The notes below the pieces were generated by a model that was not told where the DNA came from, searched no databases, and was given only the letters and a program-made list of their open reading frames with translations. A DNA stretch of 29,724 nucleotides from a virus. Below, piece after piece: positions 8,948 to 24,540 of the stretch (positions are counted from its first letter, which is position 1; every line of letters starts with the position of its first letter). Position numbers and translations under genes: made by a program. The stretch spans positions 1 to 29,724 of the IMG/VR virus record IMGVR_UViG_3300044591_001471. One strand, written 5' to 3'.

Positions 8948-9220
8948 CTACCATTTTCCAATCGGACACTCTGCAACAATGAACTTAGTCTTATGTTCTA
9001 ACCAACAACCACAGTGCCTACAACGATTCTGTTGTTGATGATAATATTCGCAAGTCTTACAAGTATCTAACCTTTGCTTCTTAACCTCATTACTAGCATA
9101 GATCTGATGTTCAGTATTTGGCACAACAACATCCTTAACAACCTCAAACGTGAACTGTGCCAGATTCTTTCCTTGTTCGATTAATGATGGAAACTCTTTC
9201 TCTTCTTTATTGTCCGACAT
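8948..9220 (-). CDS. Cys-rich (DUF6171-like) zinc-ribbon protein
   Basis: A 90-residue protein. The N-terminal half is helical (SLIEQGKNLAQFTFEVVKDV). The C-terminal half has a cysteine pattern C54xxC57, C67xxC70xC72 and C85 in ECPIGKW. This fits a small zinc-binding domain of the kind I know as DUF6171, common beside cyanophage tail-fibre genes. It is a paralogue of the protein at 9785-10102, and the two flank an oxygenase gene. It overlaps the oxygenase stop by 14 bp. Confidence 0.78.
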   Translation of the reverse strand: MSDNKEEKEFPSLIEQGKNLAQFTFEVVKDVVVPNTEHQIYASNEVKKQRLDTCKTCEYYHQQQNRCRHCGCWLEHKTKFIVAECPIGKW

Positions 9221-9806
9221 AGAACCATCCCGTTACAACATACTTTGTACCTTTCAGAACTAATCCACCACGATGGCAATGTGTTAATCCAGCAGGCCAA
9301 ATTAACAATGTTCCTTTTGATGGATTGATTCTCTTCTTATAATACAGAAACTCAGTCTCTCCTCCTTCAAAGTCATCATTCAAATAAAACATCCAAACAG
9401 CAACTCTAGATGAATGTTGAATAGAAGTATTCTCATCGTGCCAGACGTGATAACCACCACCAGCAGGAGTCTTTTGTACCTTCTGATTAATCGAATAAAG
9501 AACCAATGGTTTAAGATGACCAAAGACAGTCATATACTCATCTAGACATTCTTTCAGTACATTATTCACAATCTGTTGAGGATGAGTCGGTTTCATTGTT
9601 GATCCAAGTTCTGATAGATCAATTGCCCAATCGAATCGTCCTGCATTGGAATTCTCAAATTGTCCATCTTCACAGAAGACGGCATCCATATCGTGATAAT
9701 AATCAAATGCACCTATGATCTCATCACAGAGATTGAAATCTAGAATGTTTTCGTATGTTCCAATAAAGTCTTCATACGTTCCTTTTAGTTTAATTGATTC
9801 TTCCAT
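9207..9806 (-). CDS. 2OG-Fe(II) oxygenase (prolyl 4-hydroxylase-like)
   Basis: A 199-residue 2-oxoglutarate/Fe(II) dioxygenase. The iron ligands can be placed as H123-x-E125 in YHVWHDE and H176 in LTHCHRG; K188 in KGTKYVVTGW is the likely 2OG anchor. The segment FYLNDDFEGGETEF is typical of the P4H-like clade. It overlaps both Cys-rich neighbours (22 bp upstream, 14 bp downstream), so the three form one coupled unit behind the tail-fibre-like gene. The likely role is hydroxylation of a protein or other substrate; the target is unknown. Confidence 0.88.
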   Translation of the reverse strand: MEESIKLKGTYEDFIGTYENILDFNLCDEIIGAFDYYHDMDAVFCEDGQFENSNAGRFDWAIDLSELGSTMKPTHPQQIVNNVLKECLDEYMTVFGHLKPLVLYSINQKVQKTPAGGGYHVWHDENTSIQHSSRVAVWMFYLNDDFEGGETEFLYYKKRINPSKGTLLIWPAGLTHCHRGGLVLKGTKYVVTGWFYVGQ

Positions 9807-10102
9807 TCTTCTGCATCAGGGTACTTTTCAATGACTTTTTCGGCAAACAGATTACAATACGTATCATTCCAGGTTTCGGAACTTCGATCCCATTTTTCGA
9901 GAGGACAGAACTCATACAAGTGCTTGACCTTATTTGGCACATAACAATTACACAATCCACACATCTGGGATTCGGCATCATAATGGTCACAACTCAGGCA
10001 ATGTGCCAGTCTTTCCTTTTCTTCTTTGACCTTGACTGGAAATGCGAATCGAGCATCATTCATTTCACAGACAATATGAAAAATAAATTCAGACAGTTTC
10101 AT
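9785..10102 (-). CDS. Cys-rich (DUF6171-like) zinc-ribbon protein, second copy
   Basis: A 105-residue protein with the same cysteine layout as its neighbour at 8948-9220: C35xxC38, C48xxC51xC53, C66 in FCPLEKW. It has a C-terminal extension of about 35 residues with an amphipathic helix (FAEKVIEKYPDAEEWKNQL). The N-terminus is short and partly hydrophobic. It follows the tail-fibre-like gene and precedes the oxygenase. Confidence 0.75.
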   Translation of the reverse strand: MKLSEFIFHIVCEMNDARFAFPVKVKEEKERLAHCLSCDHYDAESQMCGLCNCYVPNKVKHLYEFCPLEKWDRSSETWNDTYCNLFAEKVIEKYPDAEEWKNQLN

Positions 10103-10146
10103 ATGACATCAGTTTTTTTCTATTCTATCAACAATCGAATTAAATG

Positions 10147-11415
10147 TCAAATAGTATTGACTCTTTGTACAAGTGCTCCTGATGCACCTCTGTTTGCCCA
10201 TCGTGTATTAGATACATTCAACCAAGGACCAGCAGATCCACCATTGGCTACATTTGTATTTCCACCAGGAAGACCATAGGTTCCACCATCTCCACCAGCA
10301 ACACCAGCAGTCGTATTCGATGTTGCATTCTGGGCATAAGTACCACCAGGGCAATTTAGTGATGCTGCACCACTTGCATTACCTCCAACACCTGCATTGG
10401 CATTGTTTGATCCTTGACCAACACCACCATCTCCACCAGATGCTGCTGCAACTGCACCATTGTCGGTGGTGATAAACTTACGGCACGTGACTGTCCAGGG
10501 ATAGGAATACCAAGTACCCTGAGAAAATCCACCCGTACCACGGAAATATCGAATATCATTGCTATAATTACAGGCTAATTGAGTATCACCACTATCACAA
10601 GCAACTGGACATCCACCGTAAAGATAAGCCCAATAATTGTTATTATAAGAATAATCATTGTAATTGGTGCATTGAGTCGTACCACTAACTGTTCCTGTGG
10701 CACCACCACCTCCACCGCCTCCACCACCAGCAATCAGTGCAGTATTGTTGAGAGTTAGATTAATTGTAGACGCATTTCCAGATGTTCTGGATGTCGTATT
10801 TCTCAGATACAATGCACCACCACCAGCACCACCACCAGTCGCAGATGTATTGGCAGTTGCCTTTGTTCCACCAACTCCTTCTCTTCCCAGAACCTGTGTG
10901 GCATTGAACGTTAGATCTAAATTTAGTGCCGAACCACTAAACACGACAGCGTGTTCTGATGTTGTACTTGCCTTTAGTGTCGAACTATCAAAGGTGACTC
11001 TTTTTGGTACATTCAAATCAATATTTGTTGCCCAGTTATCTGCAATCGTTCCACCACCAGGGCTAATGTCAATTTGACTGGATGTGTTTCCAGTATAGGA
11101 TACATCATAACGTTTGATCATATTCTTCAGACTGGAAATCTTATGATCGTTCAGTGTCGTAATTCCGTTTCCATCGACACCACAAGTCTGATTTTCAATT
11201 GAATCAGGTACAATACCAGTCTGTGCAAGTTTTTGTTCTGCACTGGCACTTACATCGACAAATACTTCATTTGCACTTGTCTTTCTTCGATAATCACCAA
11301 ATCGAATATTTGTCGAAGAGTTTCCTAATGTAGAGGCAATTGTACTGAAACTCAGAGAATCTGCACTTGGTCCAATATTCTGAAAATACTTTGTCTGTGT
11401 TGTATTAACTGGCAT
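10147..11415 (-). CDS. Glycine-rich tail fibre / adhesin-like structural protein
   Basis: A 422-residue, Asn/Ser/Thr/Gly-rich protein without a signal peptide. The N-terminal 170 residues look like a virion attachment and beta-rich region (begins MPVNTTQTKYFQNIGPSADS). From about residue 185 it has polyglycine tracts (GGGAGGGALYL, nine consecutive Gly near 230, GGDGGVGQG, GGDGGTYGLPGG) interleaved with variable segments. One segment is rich in Tyr and Cys (YNDYSYNNNYWAYLYGG; several Cys). This resembles the polyglycine-sandwich architecture of T-even tail-tip adhesins and long cyanophage fibres. The likely role is host receptor binding. The plus strand shows long spurious Pro/His/Gln frames here. 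Confidence 0.75.
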   Translation of the reverse strand: MPVNTTQTKYFQNIGPSADSLSFSTIASTLGNSSTNIRFGDYRRKTSANEVFVDVSASAEQKLAQTGIVPDSIENQTCGVDGNGITTLNDHKISSLKNMIKRYDVSYTGNTSSQIDISPGGGTIADNWATNIDLNVPKRVTFDSSTLKASTTSEHAVVFSGSALNLDLTFNATQVLGREGVGGTKATANTSATGGGAGGGALYLRNTTSRTSGNASTINLTLNNTALIAGGGGGGGGGATGTVSGTTQCTNYNDYSYNNNYWAYLYGGCPVACDSGDTQLACNYSNDIRYFRGTGGFSQGTWYSYPWTVTCRKFITTDNGAVAAASGGDGGVGQGSNNANAGVGGNASGAASLNCPGGTYAQNATSNTTAGVAGGDGGTYGLPGGNTNVANGGSAGPWLNVSNTRWANRGASGALVQRVNTI

Positions 11416-11445
11416 TTCAAAGAGAAATAGAAGTCTATTTTTAGA

Positions 11446-11453
11446 TATTTAGA
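11446..11453 (-). promoter_or_regulatory. Possible late promoter for the tail-fibre-like gene
   Basis: The minus strand reads TCTAAATA, seven of eight matches to TATAAATA, 31 bp ahead of the fibre-like gene. The distance is longer than for gp25, so this is tentative. Confidence 0.35.
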
Positions 11454-11456
11454 CTC

Positions 11457-11936
11457 TTACCTGTATTTGATTGCGATCGTGAATCGATGTGAATGATAAA
11501 ATGGTGTCGCACGATGTAATAATGATGCATCAAATATTGCAAGTCGATTGGGAACGGCACAAATTCCTTGAATACTTTCTTCCAGGTAAAATTGTGTTTC
11601 ACCACCATCATTCAAACTCCATTCTAAATGTGGATAATACAACAAGGTATATCCAGTATTGTGATCAATATGAAAATAGGATCGTTCACCAGGGGCAAAA
11701 CAATTCACATACATTCGATACAGTTTGAGTGGACCAAGAAAATCAAATGTTTCTAGAATCTTTCGATTTAAGACCTTATAGACAAACTCATTTCCAGATA
11801 TGTTATGAACCATTCCAGTCGTCGGAGTCTGTGGATTGTCCTGTTCACCATAACGATAGGAAGCACTCAGACAGTATTGATAAACTCTCTGATGTTCTGA
11901 TTTTGTTAAGAAGTTATCGATAAAATTAATTTGCAT
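11457..11936 (-). CDS. 2OG-Fe(II) oxygenase family protein
   Basis: A 159-residue dioxygenase from the ATG at 11936 (MQINFIDNFLTKSEHQRVYQ). Iron ligands are H89-x-D91 in YFHIDHN and H141 in LLHRATP. R151 in SHRFTIAIKY is the expected 2OG-binding arginine, and NDGGETQFY is the family beta-turn. It overlaps the upstream oxygenase gene by 11 bp and lies just upstream of the fibre-like gene, so the fibre or a host surface component may be the target. The frame extends ten codons further upstream, but those overlap the neighbour. Confidence 0.85.
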   Translation of the reverse strand: MQINFIDNFLTKSEHQRVYQYCLSASYRYGEQDNPQTPTTGMVHNISGNEFVYKVLNRKILETFDFLGPLKLYRMYVNCFAPGERSYFHIDHNTGYTLLYYPHLEWSLNDGGETQFYLEESIQGICAVPNRLAIFDASLLHRATPFYHSHRFTIAIKYR

Positions 11937-12543
11937 GAATCGTCTGAATATGAAGGTTAAAAGCAATCGTCACTCTTGGATAATCAGGTGTTGGTTGTGA
12001 TGGTTTCACACGGTGACTCAAATGTGATGGAAAAATGATTAAATCACCTTCTGCAATTCTAGGATTATAGACATAGAAATTATTGTATCTTCGATTTAAC
12101 TTACTCAATGAATCAATGAATGTGACTGGTGCGTGACGTTTTGGATCAAACTGTAAAAAATGAATTGCAGAAAAATGTGCATCTGGTACATTGAATGAAT
12201 CACCCATATGATCGTGTTCTTCCTGATATTCACCATTGGTATAGTAATTGAACCAGGCACCAGTAAACTCAAATTGTGTTCCCTTTCCAAAGACTTGAGA
12301 GAAATGCTTTTCATAGTTTTGACGAACTTCTGAAGACTGAATGAATAACTTATAGTTTAATTCATTCTGCTCAAATGTTGTGTAAACTTTATCCGTTGTC
12401 CATCCTTGCGGTGGATTCAATTTAAAATCTTTTTGATACTGCAAAATCTTCGGAAGAAGAAGTTCTTTTAGAACTTGATTCTTCTCCCGAAGACTATATT
12501 GATAAATGTAAGTCGGAAAGATTATTTTTCTATATTTGTCCAT
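11926..12543 (-). CDS. 2OG-Fe(II) oxygenase (2OG-FeII_Oxy_5-like)
   Basis: A 205-residue protein of the phage oxygenase type whose core reads WFNYYTNGEYQEEHDHMG, then FSAIHFLQFD, then EGDLIIFPSHLSHRVKP. The iron ligands are likely H110-x-H112 (or D111) and H177, with R190 (YPRVTIAFN) as the 2OG anchor. Such proteins are abundant beside tail-fibre genes in cyanophages, where protein hydroxylation is suspected but unproven. It is coupled to the second oxygenase by overlap. Confidence 0.85.
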   Translation of the reverse strand: MDKYRKIIFPTYIYQYSLREKNQVLKELLLPKILQYQKDFKLNPPQGWTTDKVYTTFEQNELNYKLFIQSSEVRQNYEKHFSQVFGKGTQFEFTGAWFNYYTNGEYQEEHDHMGDSFNVPDAHFSAIHFLQFDPKRHAPVTFIDSLSKLNRRYNNFYVYNPRIAEGDLIIFPSHLSHRVKPSQPTPDYPRVTIAFNLHIQTIHAN

Positions 12544-14632: not shown

Positions 14633-15003
14633 TAGTCCCAAGATACATTTTGAACAAGAAAACCAGGCATCACATAAGTCCAGACACCAAGACCATCATT
14701 TCCACCAACTTTATAATCCCACTTGTATTCAAACTTATTATGACTATCCCAGGTCATATATCCTTTCTCCTTATCAAATCTTCCTTTGATAGTAAGAGCA
14801 TATTTGTTGGAGTAAATGTTGCGGGTGCGAAGTGCTCCACCTTTTTCTCTAGTTTCAATTACTACACAGGTATCGGGATAGGTTTGAATACCTTGCTCCA
14901 AGAGGCAGGGTGTTTCATATCGAAATGGTCGATATGTTTTAATTTCTTGAGCAAAGGCAGGAAAAGAGATAAAAATTGCAGCAGCAAGAAGAAGTTTTTT
15001 CAT
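14632..15003 (-). CDS. Secreted protein with Sec signal peptide
   Basis: A 123-residue protein from the ATG at 15003. It begins MKKLLLAAAIFISFPAFAQE, a textbook signal peptide with an expected cleavage after AFA. The mature part is beta-rich with two cysteines that could form a disulfide (C33, C46 region), ETREKGGALRTRNIYSN and a final strand region. It is probably exported to the periplasm of the host. It is coupled (ATGA) to the RlpA-like gene upstream, suggesting an envelope-directed pair. The function is not known; lysis or cell-wall modification is an inference from the neighbour. Confidence 0.78.
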   Translation of the reverse strand: MKKLLLAAAIFISFPAFAQEIKTYRPFRYETPCLLEQGIQTYPDTCVVIETREKGGALRTRNIYSNKYALTIKGRFDKEKGYMTWDSHNKFEYKWDYKVGGNDGLGVWTYVMPGFLVQNVSWD

Positions 15004-15314
15004 CCAATTACTCTCCAACAAACAGTAGCATTTCCTTTATTAGTTGATTCAATATGAGAAAATGCAGCATAACTTAGATCCAGGTCAGCGTGGGAATAGG
15101 GTCCACGATCATTAACTCTTACAATTACTTGTTTCCCATTGTCTTGATTTGTAACCCTAATTTTACTTCCCATAGCAAGGTAAGGGTGAGCAGCAGTCCA
15201 ACGATAAGCATTAAATCGTTCTCCATTTGCAGTGCGTTGCCCGTGGAAACCATCACCCATTCCATAAAATGTAGCAATACCACAGGTTAGACCAGCAATC
15301 AAAGTTTCAATCAT
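15000..15314 (-). CDS. RlpA-like double-psi beta-barrel protein (cell-wall active)
   Basis: A 104-residue protein that is almost entirely an RlpA/DPBB domain. ATFYG at residues 14-18, FHGQRTANGERF at 23-34, TAAHPYLAMGSKIRVTN at 40-56, then VRVNDRGPY at 65-73 and DLDLSYAAF at 77-85. RlpA proteins are lytic transglycosylases acting on denuded peptidoglycan; the conserved Asp of NDRGP (D69) and DLS (D79) are present. The N-terminal hydrophobic stretch is only about 12 residues, so export by Sec is uncertain. It is followed by a secreted protein. The plausible role is peptidoglycan remodelling at lysis or entry. Confidence 0.85.
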   Translation of the reverse strand: MIETLIAGLTCGIATFYGMGDGFHGQRTANGERFNAYRWTAAHPYLAMGSKIRVTNQDNGKQVIVRVNDRGPYSHADLDLSYAAFSHIESTNKGNATVCWRVIG

Positions 15315-15669: not shown

Positions 15670-15675
15670 ATTATA
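15670..15675 (-). promoter_or_regulatory. -10 box (TATAAT) after palindrome G
   Basis: Minus strand CTATAATTACAAGG, 25 bp ahead of the ATG at 15645, overlapping the stop of the methyltransferase-like gene. A small CACT/AGTG hairpin and palindrome G lie just upstream. No strong -35. Confidence 0.55.
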
Positions 15676-16243
15676 GAGGAAGAACTGCCTCACTGCGAGT
15701 GCGTTGTGCCAGTTTGGAAGCTGGCACATTCAGTTCCTCCATTATGATTTGTTTTGGTAGAAAGTTCCAACAATAGTAACTGCTGCTGAACGTGATTTTA
15801 TCATTTGGACGACCATCAGGACTGTGAAACTTCATACGCTTATCAAACATCAGCAGTTGCAGATCTTTGTCCTTGAACAGTTGCTTTGGTGCAGAATCAT
15901 TCAACCAGGTGTTCGTCATAATCAGAGCAAATGGTTTGCCAAATGATAATGCTCGCTCGAAGAACTTTCTCTTGTTTGTGAATGGTGGATTGGATACAAT
16001 TACATCCCAATGAAACTTTGGTGTAAAAGTGAGAAAATCATAACCCTGTGAAATATGGGAATAAATCACTTGATTTTGTGGTGAGATTTGCTTGACAAAC
16101 TCACTCTCAGCAGTGTCAAATGGGCACCAAACAGTGGCACCTTTGGGAATGTATTTCAGAATAGGAGTAACACCGTATGAAGGAGTATAGCACTCATCAT
16201 TATTCCCTTCGGAATACATTAGTTTTCCACTATCAAGTGTCAT
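15671..16243 (-). CDS. DNA adenine methyltransferase-like protein
   Basis: A 190-residue protein with the NPPF motif (VIVSNPPFTNKRKFFERAL, N85-P-P-F88) of amino-methyltransferases. The N-terminal NDECYTPSYGVTPILKY resembles the substrate/start region of phage adenine methyltransferases. The usual SAM-binding FxGxG loop is replaced by VWCPFDTAESEFV, so cofactor binding should be tested. It overlaps the nuclease-like gene by ATGA. Its last residues (VPASKLAQ) are encoded by palindrome G. It could be an active N6-adenine methylase, or a degenerate one. Confidence 0.78.
   Translation of the reverse strand: MTLDSGKLMYSEGNNDECYTPSYGVTPILKYIPKGATVWCPFDTAESEFVKQISPQNQVIYSHISQGYDFLTFTPKFHWDVIVSNPPFTNKRKFFERALSFGKPFALIMTNTWLNDSAPKQLFKDKDLQLLMFDKRMKFHSPDGRPNDKITFSSSYYCWNFLPKQIIMEELNVPASKLAQRTRSEAVLPL
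15706..15727. repeat. Palindrome copy G (GTGCCASTT family), translated
   Basis: Plus strand: GTGCCAGTT, TGGA, AGCTGGCAC. It lies in the last codons of the methyltransferase-like gene and encodes V-P-A-S-K-L-A-Q. Confidence 0.8.
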
Positions 16244-16737
16244 ACAATTTGAGTTCCGTATTGATAAATTTCTTTCTTAGTTAGATTACCAGAGAGTCGG
16301 GGATCTTTATGCTTACCGTGAATCTTACGTTCCCAATCTTTCTTGAGTTTAGGAAGCAGAATCATCAACACATCATCACCAGTCAGTTTCCAAACTTCTA
16401 CAACTTTGCCACCATCATAACGGGCAATGTAGTGATTGGAATACTTACCAAGTTTTTCCTCAATCAAATAACGTTCCTGTTCTTCCCAGGTATCTTGAAC
16501 ACTGATACCATTATACGTCCCATTGATGAAATTGGCAATGGTAGATTTATACTCACATTCACCATCTTGATCAACAGCATCAGCACCCGAATAGGTTTCT
16601 GCTACTTGATGCCCAAGAATACCAGCAAGATGTATCTCACGCGATCGAGCATAACTGAAAGGATCTCCCCAACCTTGCTCATCACAAAGTTGGTACATTT
16701 CCTCAAACAGTTGCTGAAACCGTTGTTCAGGGGTCAT
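16240..16737 (-). CDS. PD-(D/E)XK nuclease-like protein
   Basis: A 165-residue protein with a nuclease-type signature. After a helix with EIHLAGILGH comes YSGADAVDQDGECEYKST, giving D53/D56 and E62-x-K64, the spacing of the PD-(D/E)XK core. It then has WEEQERYLIEEKLGKY and VVEVWKLTGDDV, ending in KDPRLSGNLTKKEI. It directly precedes the methyltransferase-like gene with a 4-bp ATGA overlap. This makes a plausible restriction-modification-like or site-specific DNA-processing pair. The promoter upstream (TATAAT at 16759) would give one transcript for both. Confidence 0.72.
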   Translation of the reverse strand: MTPEQRFQQLFEEMYQLCDEQGWGDPFSYARSREIHLAGILGHQVAETYSGADAVDQDGECEYKSTIANFINGTYNGISVQDTWEEQERYLIEEKLGKYSNHYIARYDGGKVVEVWKLTGDDVLMILLPKLKKDWERKIHGKHKDPRLSGNLTKKEIYQYGTQIV

Positions 16738-16758: not shown

Positions 16759-16764
16759 ATTATA
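16759..16764 (-). promoter_or_regulatory. -10 box (TATAAT) of the nuclease/methyltransferase pair
   Basis: Minus strand GTATAATACAAG, 22 bp ahead of the ATG at 16737, overlapping the stop of the upstream gene. A GCCTG-ATG-CAGGC hairpin (16767-16779) abuts it. Confidence 0.6.
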
Positions 16765-17236
16765 CTGCCTGCATCAGGCGGTTCGGGAAAAACTGTGCCA
16801 CTTTGGGGACTGGCACACCTTGTTTCTCAATTAGATACTCCAGATATAGGGTTTCTTCTTGCTCCCGTGCCTCTATTTCGTGTGGTTGATGCCAATAGTC
16901 GTACTTTTCGACTGGTTCTTTAGAATAACACAATTTTCCGTATCGGAACCGCAGTGAACCGACTACCCACTGGCGCAAGTGGACCAGTTCGTGTAAAAGA
17001 GTTTTTATATACAACTCCTCAGACATATGGGTGTTGAGTTCAATCAGAAACTCACGGGGACGACGTGATGCTCCCACATAGTCGCAATACCCATAAACTT
17101 GTTCACGACGCAGACCACGATGAAGAATCTCCACCTCAATCTTATGACGGGGAAGAAACTTATTCAGAAACCAAGTGGTAACGTCCTCACAGAGGCGTTT
17201 AGAATAACCATATCCAGAATACGTGATGTAAGACAT
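16760..17236 (-). CDS. SprT-like HExxH zinc metalloprotein
   Basis: A 158-residue protein from the ATG at 17236 (MSYITYSGYGYSKRLCEDVT). LLHELVHLRQW gives H82-E83-xx-H86, a zincin active site. HQPHEIEAREQEE (H119/E120 or E127) supplies a third ligand, as in SprT/WLM-like proteins. Other recognisable cyanophage segments are NKFLPRHKIEVEILHRGLRR and REFLIELNTHM. It is probably a protease or peptidase acting in the host; the substrate is unknown. The tail VPVPKVAQ is encoded by palindrome H. The codons before M8 use TTG and are not needed. Confidence 0.8.
   Translation of the reverse strand: MSYITYSGYGYSKRLCEDVTTWFLNKFLPRHKIEVEILHRGLRREQVYGYCDYVGASRRPREFLIELNTHMSEELYIKTLLHELVHLRQWVVGSLRFRYGKLCYSKEPVEKYDYWHQPHEIEAREQEETLYLEYLIEKQGVPVPKVAQFFPNRLMQAV
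16795..16816. repeat. Palindrome copy H (GTGCCASTT family), translated
   Basis: Plus strand: GTGCCACTT, TGGG, GACTGGCAC. It is translated as V-P-V-P-K-V-A-Q near the end of the SprT-like gene. Confidence 0.8.
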
Positions 17237-17294
17237 TGACCCCAATGCAAAAACCAAATGAACGAAGAAATGAAGATGAGTTTGTCTCTAGCAG

Positions 17295-23422: not shown

Positions 23423-23604
23423 TTTAAATAATTCCTTTTTTCTGTATCAAATGTTGTCCACTTTGCTATTTTAAGGCACATCAGTAAAGTTTGATGTTCA
23501 CGATCATACAATTCCCAGTCTTGTTTGAGTTTCGCAGCATATCGACGACGATAGGCACAAGACCATACGTTGTAGTATATTTTATCCTTATCACTGAGAG
23601 ACAT
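23419..23604 (-). CDS. Small basic helical protein
   Basis: A 61-residue protein from the ATG at 23604 (MSLSDKDKIYYNVWSCAYRR; then RYAAKLKQDWELYDREHQ). It is helical and basic. The TTG-started extension is not needed. It overlaps the end of the oxygenase gene by 14 bp. Function unknown. Confidence 0.7.
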   Translation of the reverse strand: MSLSDKDKIYYNVWSCAYRRRYAAKLKQDWELYDREHQTLLMCLKIAKWTTFDTEKRNYLK

Positions 23605-24193
23605 CTTTACCAATATTTACAGATACAAATTGACTTATACAATACCTACCATATCCTTTATTTTTATATTCATCTGGTAGATAAACTTTTTTAACCGAAT
23701 GCCAGATGTTTGACGGGAATATAATACAGGAATTATTTTTACAGGGAACTTTTATATCATAATCAGGGAACCAAAACTCTCCACCCAAAAATTGCTTTGG
23801 TTCTTTATATAACCAAGTACAAGCAGTAATGTAGGATGAATCATTATGCTTAGCATAATAATCATCGTCATCATAATATGATATGAGTGTCACATCCTTA
23901 TTAAAATTAGTGTCTTTAAAAAACCAAGATGATGGATGATTTATTATGGTTGGATCATATAATTTTTTTGTGATATTAAAAAGATTGGATGATTTATCCT
24001 CTAACCATAAACCTCTATTTGCTTTTATATAATTTCCATTATCATCTTTGGCACTATGAGTATCATCTGGTGATAAAAATTTATCACCTTCAACATATAA
24101 ACTATTCAATTCTTCCCATATTAAATCCAATTCTTCTTGGGAATAAAAATTCTCAAAATAGAGATAATGAAATGGATATGTTATGAGTGTCAT
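23591..24193 (-). CDS. 2OG-Fe(II) oxygenase family protein
   Basis: A 200-residue dioxygenase from the ATG at 24193 (MTLITYPFHYLYFENFYSQE). Iron ligands are H116-x-D118 in YYAKHNDSS and H165 in NIWHSVKK. R183 in YGRYCISQFV is the likely 2OG anchor; LGGEFWFPDYD is the family turn. It is AT-rich like the NTF2-like gene nearby and unlike the surrounding early genes. It is the fourth oxygenase in the window and the only one away from the tail-fibre block. Confidence 0.83.
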   Translation of the reverse strand: MTLITYPFHYLYFENFYSQEELDLIWEELNSLYVEGDKFLSPDDTHSAKDDNGNYIKANRGLWLEDKSSNLFNITKKLYDPTIINHPSSWFFKDTNFNKDVTLISYYDDDDYYAKHNDSSYITACTWLYKEPKQFLGGEFWFPDYDIKVPCKNNSCIIFPSNIWHSVKKVYLPDEYKNKGYGRYCISQFVSVNIGKDVSQ

Positions 24194-24195
24194 AA

Positions 24196-24540
24196 TCAAT
24201 CATCCCACGGTGCTTTGCGACTCATTAGTTCTTTAATTCTTTCCACCACAACAGGATCTGGTGGTTCATTTATTCTTCGCACAAGTTCATCATATGCTTC
24301 TGCGGATACAATAATCCTTTCTGGTTCTTGACCTAATCGCAACCTGCGTTCTGGACTGATAGTTAGGTTGTAAGGATCATCATAAGGATAGATATACTCC
24401 TGAAACCAACCAATACTCAACGATTCCCAGAACTCACCATAACCCCATTCATCACCGTCATCATAACAGTCAAGAATATACAGGACATTACGAAATCCAT
24501 CAAGGAAAAGTTCCCATTTTGTTGGGTTTTCAAATCTCAT
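24196..24540 (-). CDS. Protein with C-terminal antitoxin-like motif
   Basis: A 114-residue protein from the ATG at 24540 (MRFENPTKWELFLDGFRNVL). The N-terminal half has aromatic-rich segments (WGYGEFWESLSIGWFQEYIY). The C-terminus (RIIVSAEAYDELVRRINEPP, then DPVVVERIKELMSRKAPWDD) resembles the end of DUF1778/TacA-type antitoxins (xxSxxxxxxLxxxLxxPPxP). The longer frame to 24657 is rejected because it overlaps the upstream gene entirely out of frame. No toxin gene is visible next to it. Confidence 0.68.
   Translation of the reverse strand: MRFENPTKWELFLDGFRNVLYILDCYDDGDEWGYGEFWESLSIGWFQEYIYPYDDPYNLTISPERRLRLGQEPERIIVSAEAYDELVRRINEPPDPVVVERIKELMSRKAPWDD

Follow-up and report, generated by a model that had tools for sequence, protein, structure and literature searches.

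Two overlapping genes of a cyanophage, one resembling restriction nucleases and the other DNA methylases, raise the question of whether a lytic virus may carry its own restriction-modification (R-M) system. The window analyzed here, which is the whole stretch of 29,724 nucleotides, is part of the genome of a cyanophage of Kyanoviridae type: it matches Synechococcus phage S-SRM01 at the DNA level and encodes Kyano_Gp96 and DUF6267 proteins. Both open reading frames (ORFs) and the overlap between them, described in an earlier note made from the sequence alone, were recovered in the ORF list at exactly the same coordinates. The features of the pair are as follows.

16240..16737, minus strand: PvuII-fold PD-(D/E)XK endonuclease-like gene, 165 aa (ORF list; phrog_35715, unknown function)
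15671..16243, minus strand: class-I DNA (adenine) methyltransferase-like gene, 190 aa (ORF list; phrog_799)
16240..16243, minus strand: ATGA stop/start overlap coupling the nuclease and methylase genes (ORF coordinates)
16546..16581, minus strand: catalytic stretch D53...E62-Y-K64 of the nuclease, PvuII D58...E68-L-K70 (alignments)
16441..16443, minus strand: nuclease Y99, equivalent of PvuII Y94 (alignments)
16094..16132, minus strand: variant motif I (SAM loop) of the methylase, residues 38-50, VWCPFDTAESEFV (alignments)
15980..15991, minus strand: catalytic motif IV NPPF of the methylase, residues 85-88, N85-P-P-F88 (translation, alignments)

Both ORFs are conserved across more than 80 viral contigs, with internal stops absent, and most relatives keep the zero-gap junction with the same ATGA overlap. 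We consider that the pair probably forms a compact virus-encoded type II R-M-like cassette of T4-like cyanophages. An R-M-like module had already been suggested in the earlier note, and it remains the best reading, as the nuclease fold and the linkage of the two genes hold. The shared TATAAT promoter also proposed for the pair was not supported. TATAAT is present on the minus strand at 16759-16764, but the promoter scan gave no full sigma-70 match at that spot; upstream of the nuclease, TATAAT occurs in only 5 of 29 relatives and TATACT in 2 of 29.

Of the surrounding genes, a SprT-like metallopeptidase gene (16760-17257, minus strand) lies directly upstream of the pair, and genes of this kind are found in that position more often than any others (23 of 70 loci). 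The window also carries a DPBB_1/RlpA-like lytic transglycosylase gene (15000-15314, minus strand; PF03330, E=2.3e-22) and several 2OG-Fe(II) oxygenase genes (9207-12543 and 23591-24199, minus strand).

Predicted fold and catalytic residues of the nuclease

The 165-residue protein matches phrog_35715 with an E-value of 8.8e-83. Its match to the PvuII family (PF09225) is full-length but weak (E=0.0023), with a score of 18.4 bits that lies under the gathering cut-off of 25. Sequence searches of the PDB with single proteins and with profiles gave nothing useful, and only fold comparison led to PvuII. When the AF2 model of the nuclease (20 homologues, pLDDT 89.9) was compared with the PDB by Foldseek, ranks 1-12 were all PvuII (E 1.4e-6 to 2.3e-5), matched over the full length with a probability of 1.0 and a TM of about 0.6. 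The nuclease core that had been postulated for this protein was thereby found in its predicted fold, and no solved structure came closer to it than PvuII. A degenerate-pattern scan of GTDB genomes did not find relatives of the nuclease, and PADLOC has no model covering it. A match in S-SRM01 at 167318 was discarded as a chance match inside an unrelated 552-aa ORF.

Alignments by hhalign and MAFFT, for which the PvuII reference sequence was checked against the PDB, paired D53, E62, K64 and Y99 of the nuclease with D58, E68, K70 and Y94 of PvuII. These four residues are invariant in 16 of 16 diverse phage sequences, among them those of a branch that shares about 50% identity, and so is E34, in the helix before the catalytic stretch. 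The core had originally been drawn as D53/D56...E62-x-K64. All these residues are present, but D56 is C, G, N or E in some of the 16 homologues and therefore lies outside the catalytic core.

The likeness to PvuII (PDB 1PVI/2PVI) also includes size (157 versus 165 aa) and a C-terminal N-P-K/R region that aligns with the nuclease. On the other hand, identity is about 20-25%, the nuclease has an extra segment at about residues 82-90, and several PvuII positions are replaced (D34 by Y29, N140/N141 by K144/D145, with a different H83-H85 loop). The partners differ as well: M.PvuII is an N4-C methylase type, and the methylase in the window is not. The nuclease is thus predicted to have a PvuII fold, yet is not assigned to PvuII proper. 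Most likely, it is an endonuclease of the PvuII branch that acts as a homodimer and depends on Mg2+.

The 13th PDB match was the N-terminal domain of Eco15I (E=1.5e-3), which belongs to the 5mC-dependent BisI family, itself PvuII-related (PMC11347163). This next-nearest fold would fit an alternative raised in the earlier note, namely a modification-dependent, BisI-like nuclease directed against methylated DNA of rivals or of the host, with the methylase in another role. However, the E-value of PvuII is about 1000-fold better than that of Eco15I, and the invariant E62-Y-K64 is a motif of conventional enzymes, unlike the QXK motif (QVK/QIK) of NhoI and Eco15I (PMC11347163). In addition, a phage that encodes a methylase next to a nuclease cutting methylated DNA could put its own genome at risk. 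We therefore regard a BisI-like activity as quite unlikely.

RecU and Hjc were also among the fold matches (E 0.06-0.6, RecU 0.06), and T4-like phages have many free-standing endonucleases. Both points would suit a Holliday-junction resolvase or a homing-type nuclease instead of a restriction enzyme. The PvuII matches are nevertheless orders of magnitude better and full-length, and there is no reason for resolvases to travel with changing DNA methylases, as described below. We hold these readings to be highly improbable, and they were dropped because the fold ranking favours PvuII.

Family and motifs of the methylase

The 190-residue protein matches phrog_799 “DNA methyltransferase” (E=3.2e-37). 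Its Pfam matches to Eco57I and EcoRI_methylase are below cut-off, the score for the latter (PF13651) being 17.4 bits versus a gathering cut-off of 26.4. The AF2 model is of low confidence (63.9) and gave class-I methyltransferase fold matches, with METTL5 first. The NPPF motif reported earlier is indeed present in the translation. The protein had also been said to lack an obvious SAM loop; the loop is non-canonical but not absent, its place at motif I being taken by WCPFDxxxS, a conserved variant. The core of this variant is invariant across cyanophages, is also found in phage relatives from Thermus, Fusobacterium, Flavobacterium, Enterocloster and Streptococcus, and aligns with EPTAGKS of phage Lau218. 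The protein thus resembles phrog_799 and EcoRI methylase in its NPPF-type motif IV, its motif-I variant and its small size. It is most likely a short class-I amino-methyltransferase, and its target base is probably adenine N6, the NPPF motif pointing to adenine as the substrate. Unlike in the window, the phrog_799 relatives in the other phages examined have no such nuclease alongside.

Linkage of the two genes and replacement of the methylase

Nearly all of the first 80 nuclease loci found in IMG/VR carry a methylase directly downstream. Among 93 distinct nuclease sequences, a phrog_799 methylase is located directly downstream in 79 and within 1.5 kb downstream in 5 more (84/93), while 9 have none nearby. 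Next to the adjacent pair, 24 gene families were counted upstream and 27 downstream; with so many different flanking families, the pair moves as a cassette, and its linkage is not passive synteny. Co-occurrence in relatives, the check proposed in the earlier note, thus showed that separation of the genes is rare: the methylase is 7 kb upstream of the nuclease in P-SSM5/P-SSM2, and the two genes are 13 kb apart in contig G009. In the lineage of this contig, a peptide-deformylase-like gene (L226/L228, 4574-5005) overlaps the start of the methylase that is distant from the nuclease. Both genes are under purifying selection, with a median Ka/Ks of about 0.12 for the nuclease and 0.10 for the methylase. 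Their distances are correlated (Mantel r 0.51, p 0.001), which common phage ancestry could also give.

A methylase without a nuclease nearby was found at 22 of 80 methylase loci; in some of them, the methylase is coupled directly to the SprT-like gene, which in the window lies ahead of the nuclease. A nuclease without any known methylase was almost never seen. Such a pattern, with lone methylases common and lone nucleases rare, is expected from the toxicity of an unpaired restriction enzyme. The lone methylases, the separated genes of P-SSM5/P-SSM2 and G009, and the many unrelated phages that have phrog_799 but not this nuclease could also indicate two accessory genes independent of each other, the methylase being an orphan that counters restriction and the nuclease serving recombination or host DNA cutting, brought together by chance or by shared transcription. 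We find this unlikely, since the 84 linked nucleases are spread across more than 20 gene neighbourhoods and the partner can be replaced by other DNA methylases.

This replacement argues for the cassette. Five of the 9 nucleases without a nearby phrog_799 have a canonical PF01555-type (DPPY) methylase downstream (L431, L432, L434, L435 and L437), and L068 has a split NPPY methylase as partner. In the divergent nuclease branch (L195, L432-L437), the downstream partners are clearly DNA methyltransferases (PF01555; E=1.7e-30 for L195 and 3.6e-32 for L435), unrelated to phrog_799. HMM matches confirmed the assignments for L195/L431 and L435; the remaining ones rely on motif and sequence similarity, with L434 assigned from its close relative L433. 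The contig of L438, another of the 9, stops too early to show a partner, and no recognisable methylase was detected in the 5 kb available downstream of the nuclease in L192/L193, the last two of the 9, where the contig begins about 2 kb upstream. In P-TIM68, an additional PF01555 methylase is located directly upstream of the pair; an annotated anti-restriction protein is encoded about 4 kb downstream of the cassette (L002:10956-11369).

The linkage of genes for a restriction endonuclease (REase) and a DNA methylase, which a type II R-M system requires, was found in 84/93 cases, with alternative methylases in 6 more. The pair would resemble such a system in its working; membership also requires that both enzymes share one site, with methylation blocking the cut. 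A point against the R-M reading is that, if three unrelated methylases all pair with one nuclease family, either a common site for all of them or a branch-specific specificity of the nuclease would be needed.

In both nuclease branches, ParB/DGQHR-like genes were repeatedly found between the nuclease and the methylase or directly before the methylase. They were recognized by eye from the motifs VADGQH, IGNGNHT and VEGNHR, at the following positions.

L066:7520-8660, ParB/DGQHR-like gene
L071:2255-3220, ParB/DGQHR-like gene
L082:670-1745, ParB/DGQHR-like gene
L218:3998-5011, ParB/DGQHR-like gene (Pfam: weak DUF6551 match only)
L235:2434-3336, ParB/DGQHR-like gene (Pfam: no match)
L433:2747-3784, ParB/DGQHR-like gene (Pfam: no match)

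The ParB/DGQHR-like gene is possibly a third component of the module.

Possible role and target site

In the proposed mechanism, the PvuII-branch nuclease would cut unmethylated short sites, and the methylase would modify an amino group, probably adenine N6, at the nuclease's own site, thereby sparing phage DNA. Most likely, the phage would use the pair to digest the unmethylated chromosome of its host, for nucleotides and for shutdown; keeping out rival phages ranks second, and we moderately prefer the former. Known viral systems leave room for both roles. The REases of chloroviruses, encoded next to methylases, are thought to degrade host chromatin/DNA (PMC7019647), while the GATC R-M system of a Marseillevirus (melbournevirus) does not degrade host DNA (PMC7253447). 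The type II R-M systems of chloroviruses (CviJI and others) resemble the cyanophage pair in having a viral REase and methylase side by side, with orphan methylases also common (PMC7019647), but these are viruses of eukaryotic algae that package their REases in the virion. The melbournevirus system likewise combines an REase with a methylase, also in a virus that is lytic (PMC7253447).

Cyanomyoviruses are devoid of denA, ndd and denB, and a review considered that an undescribed method of degradation may exist (PMC2984593). Tentatively, the cassette could be this missing host-genome-degradation machinery in many T4-like cyanophages, taking the place of T4 denA/denB and the modified-DNA strategy, with an interchangeable small methylase marking phage DNA; we see this as conceivable, though short of probable. 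The cassette is thus a candidate for the missing function in the cultured phages P-SSM2, P-SSM5 and P-TIM68, in which the genes are annotated merely as hypothetical protein or DNA methyltransferase. Virus-encoded R-M pairs are already known, and the cyanophage pair is a variant among them. It would nonetheless be uncommon for lytic phages to carry a type II R-M-like pair that is mobile as a cassette and whose methylase can be exchanged, and such a pair would also offer a source of new restriction specificities.

The residues D34, H84/H85 and N140/N141 of PvuII are DNA contacts. CAGCTG occurs 70 times in carriers versus 71 expected, a count that neither proves nor excludes cutting at this site. 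Since the base-reading residues of PvuII are replaced in the nuclease and CAGCTG is not depleted, the target is predicted to differ and is probably another short site. A comparison of 6 carrier genomes or contigs with 7 controls revealed no palindrome avoided specifically by carriers, hence no target could be drawn from avoidance. The strongest depletion in carriers was that of GTGCAC, CATG and GGTACC, seen in controls too. These three sites are strongly depleted in P-SSM5, G001, G009, Syn9 and S-SSM7, whether the cassette is present or absent, and host R-M or restriction pressure is probably behind this depletion.
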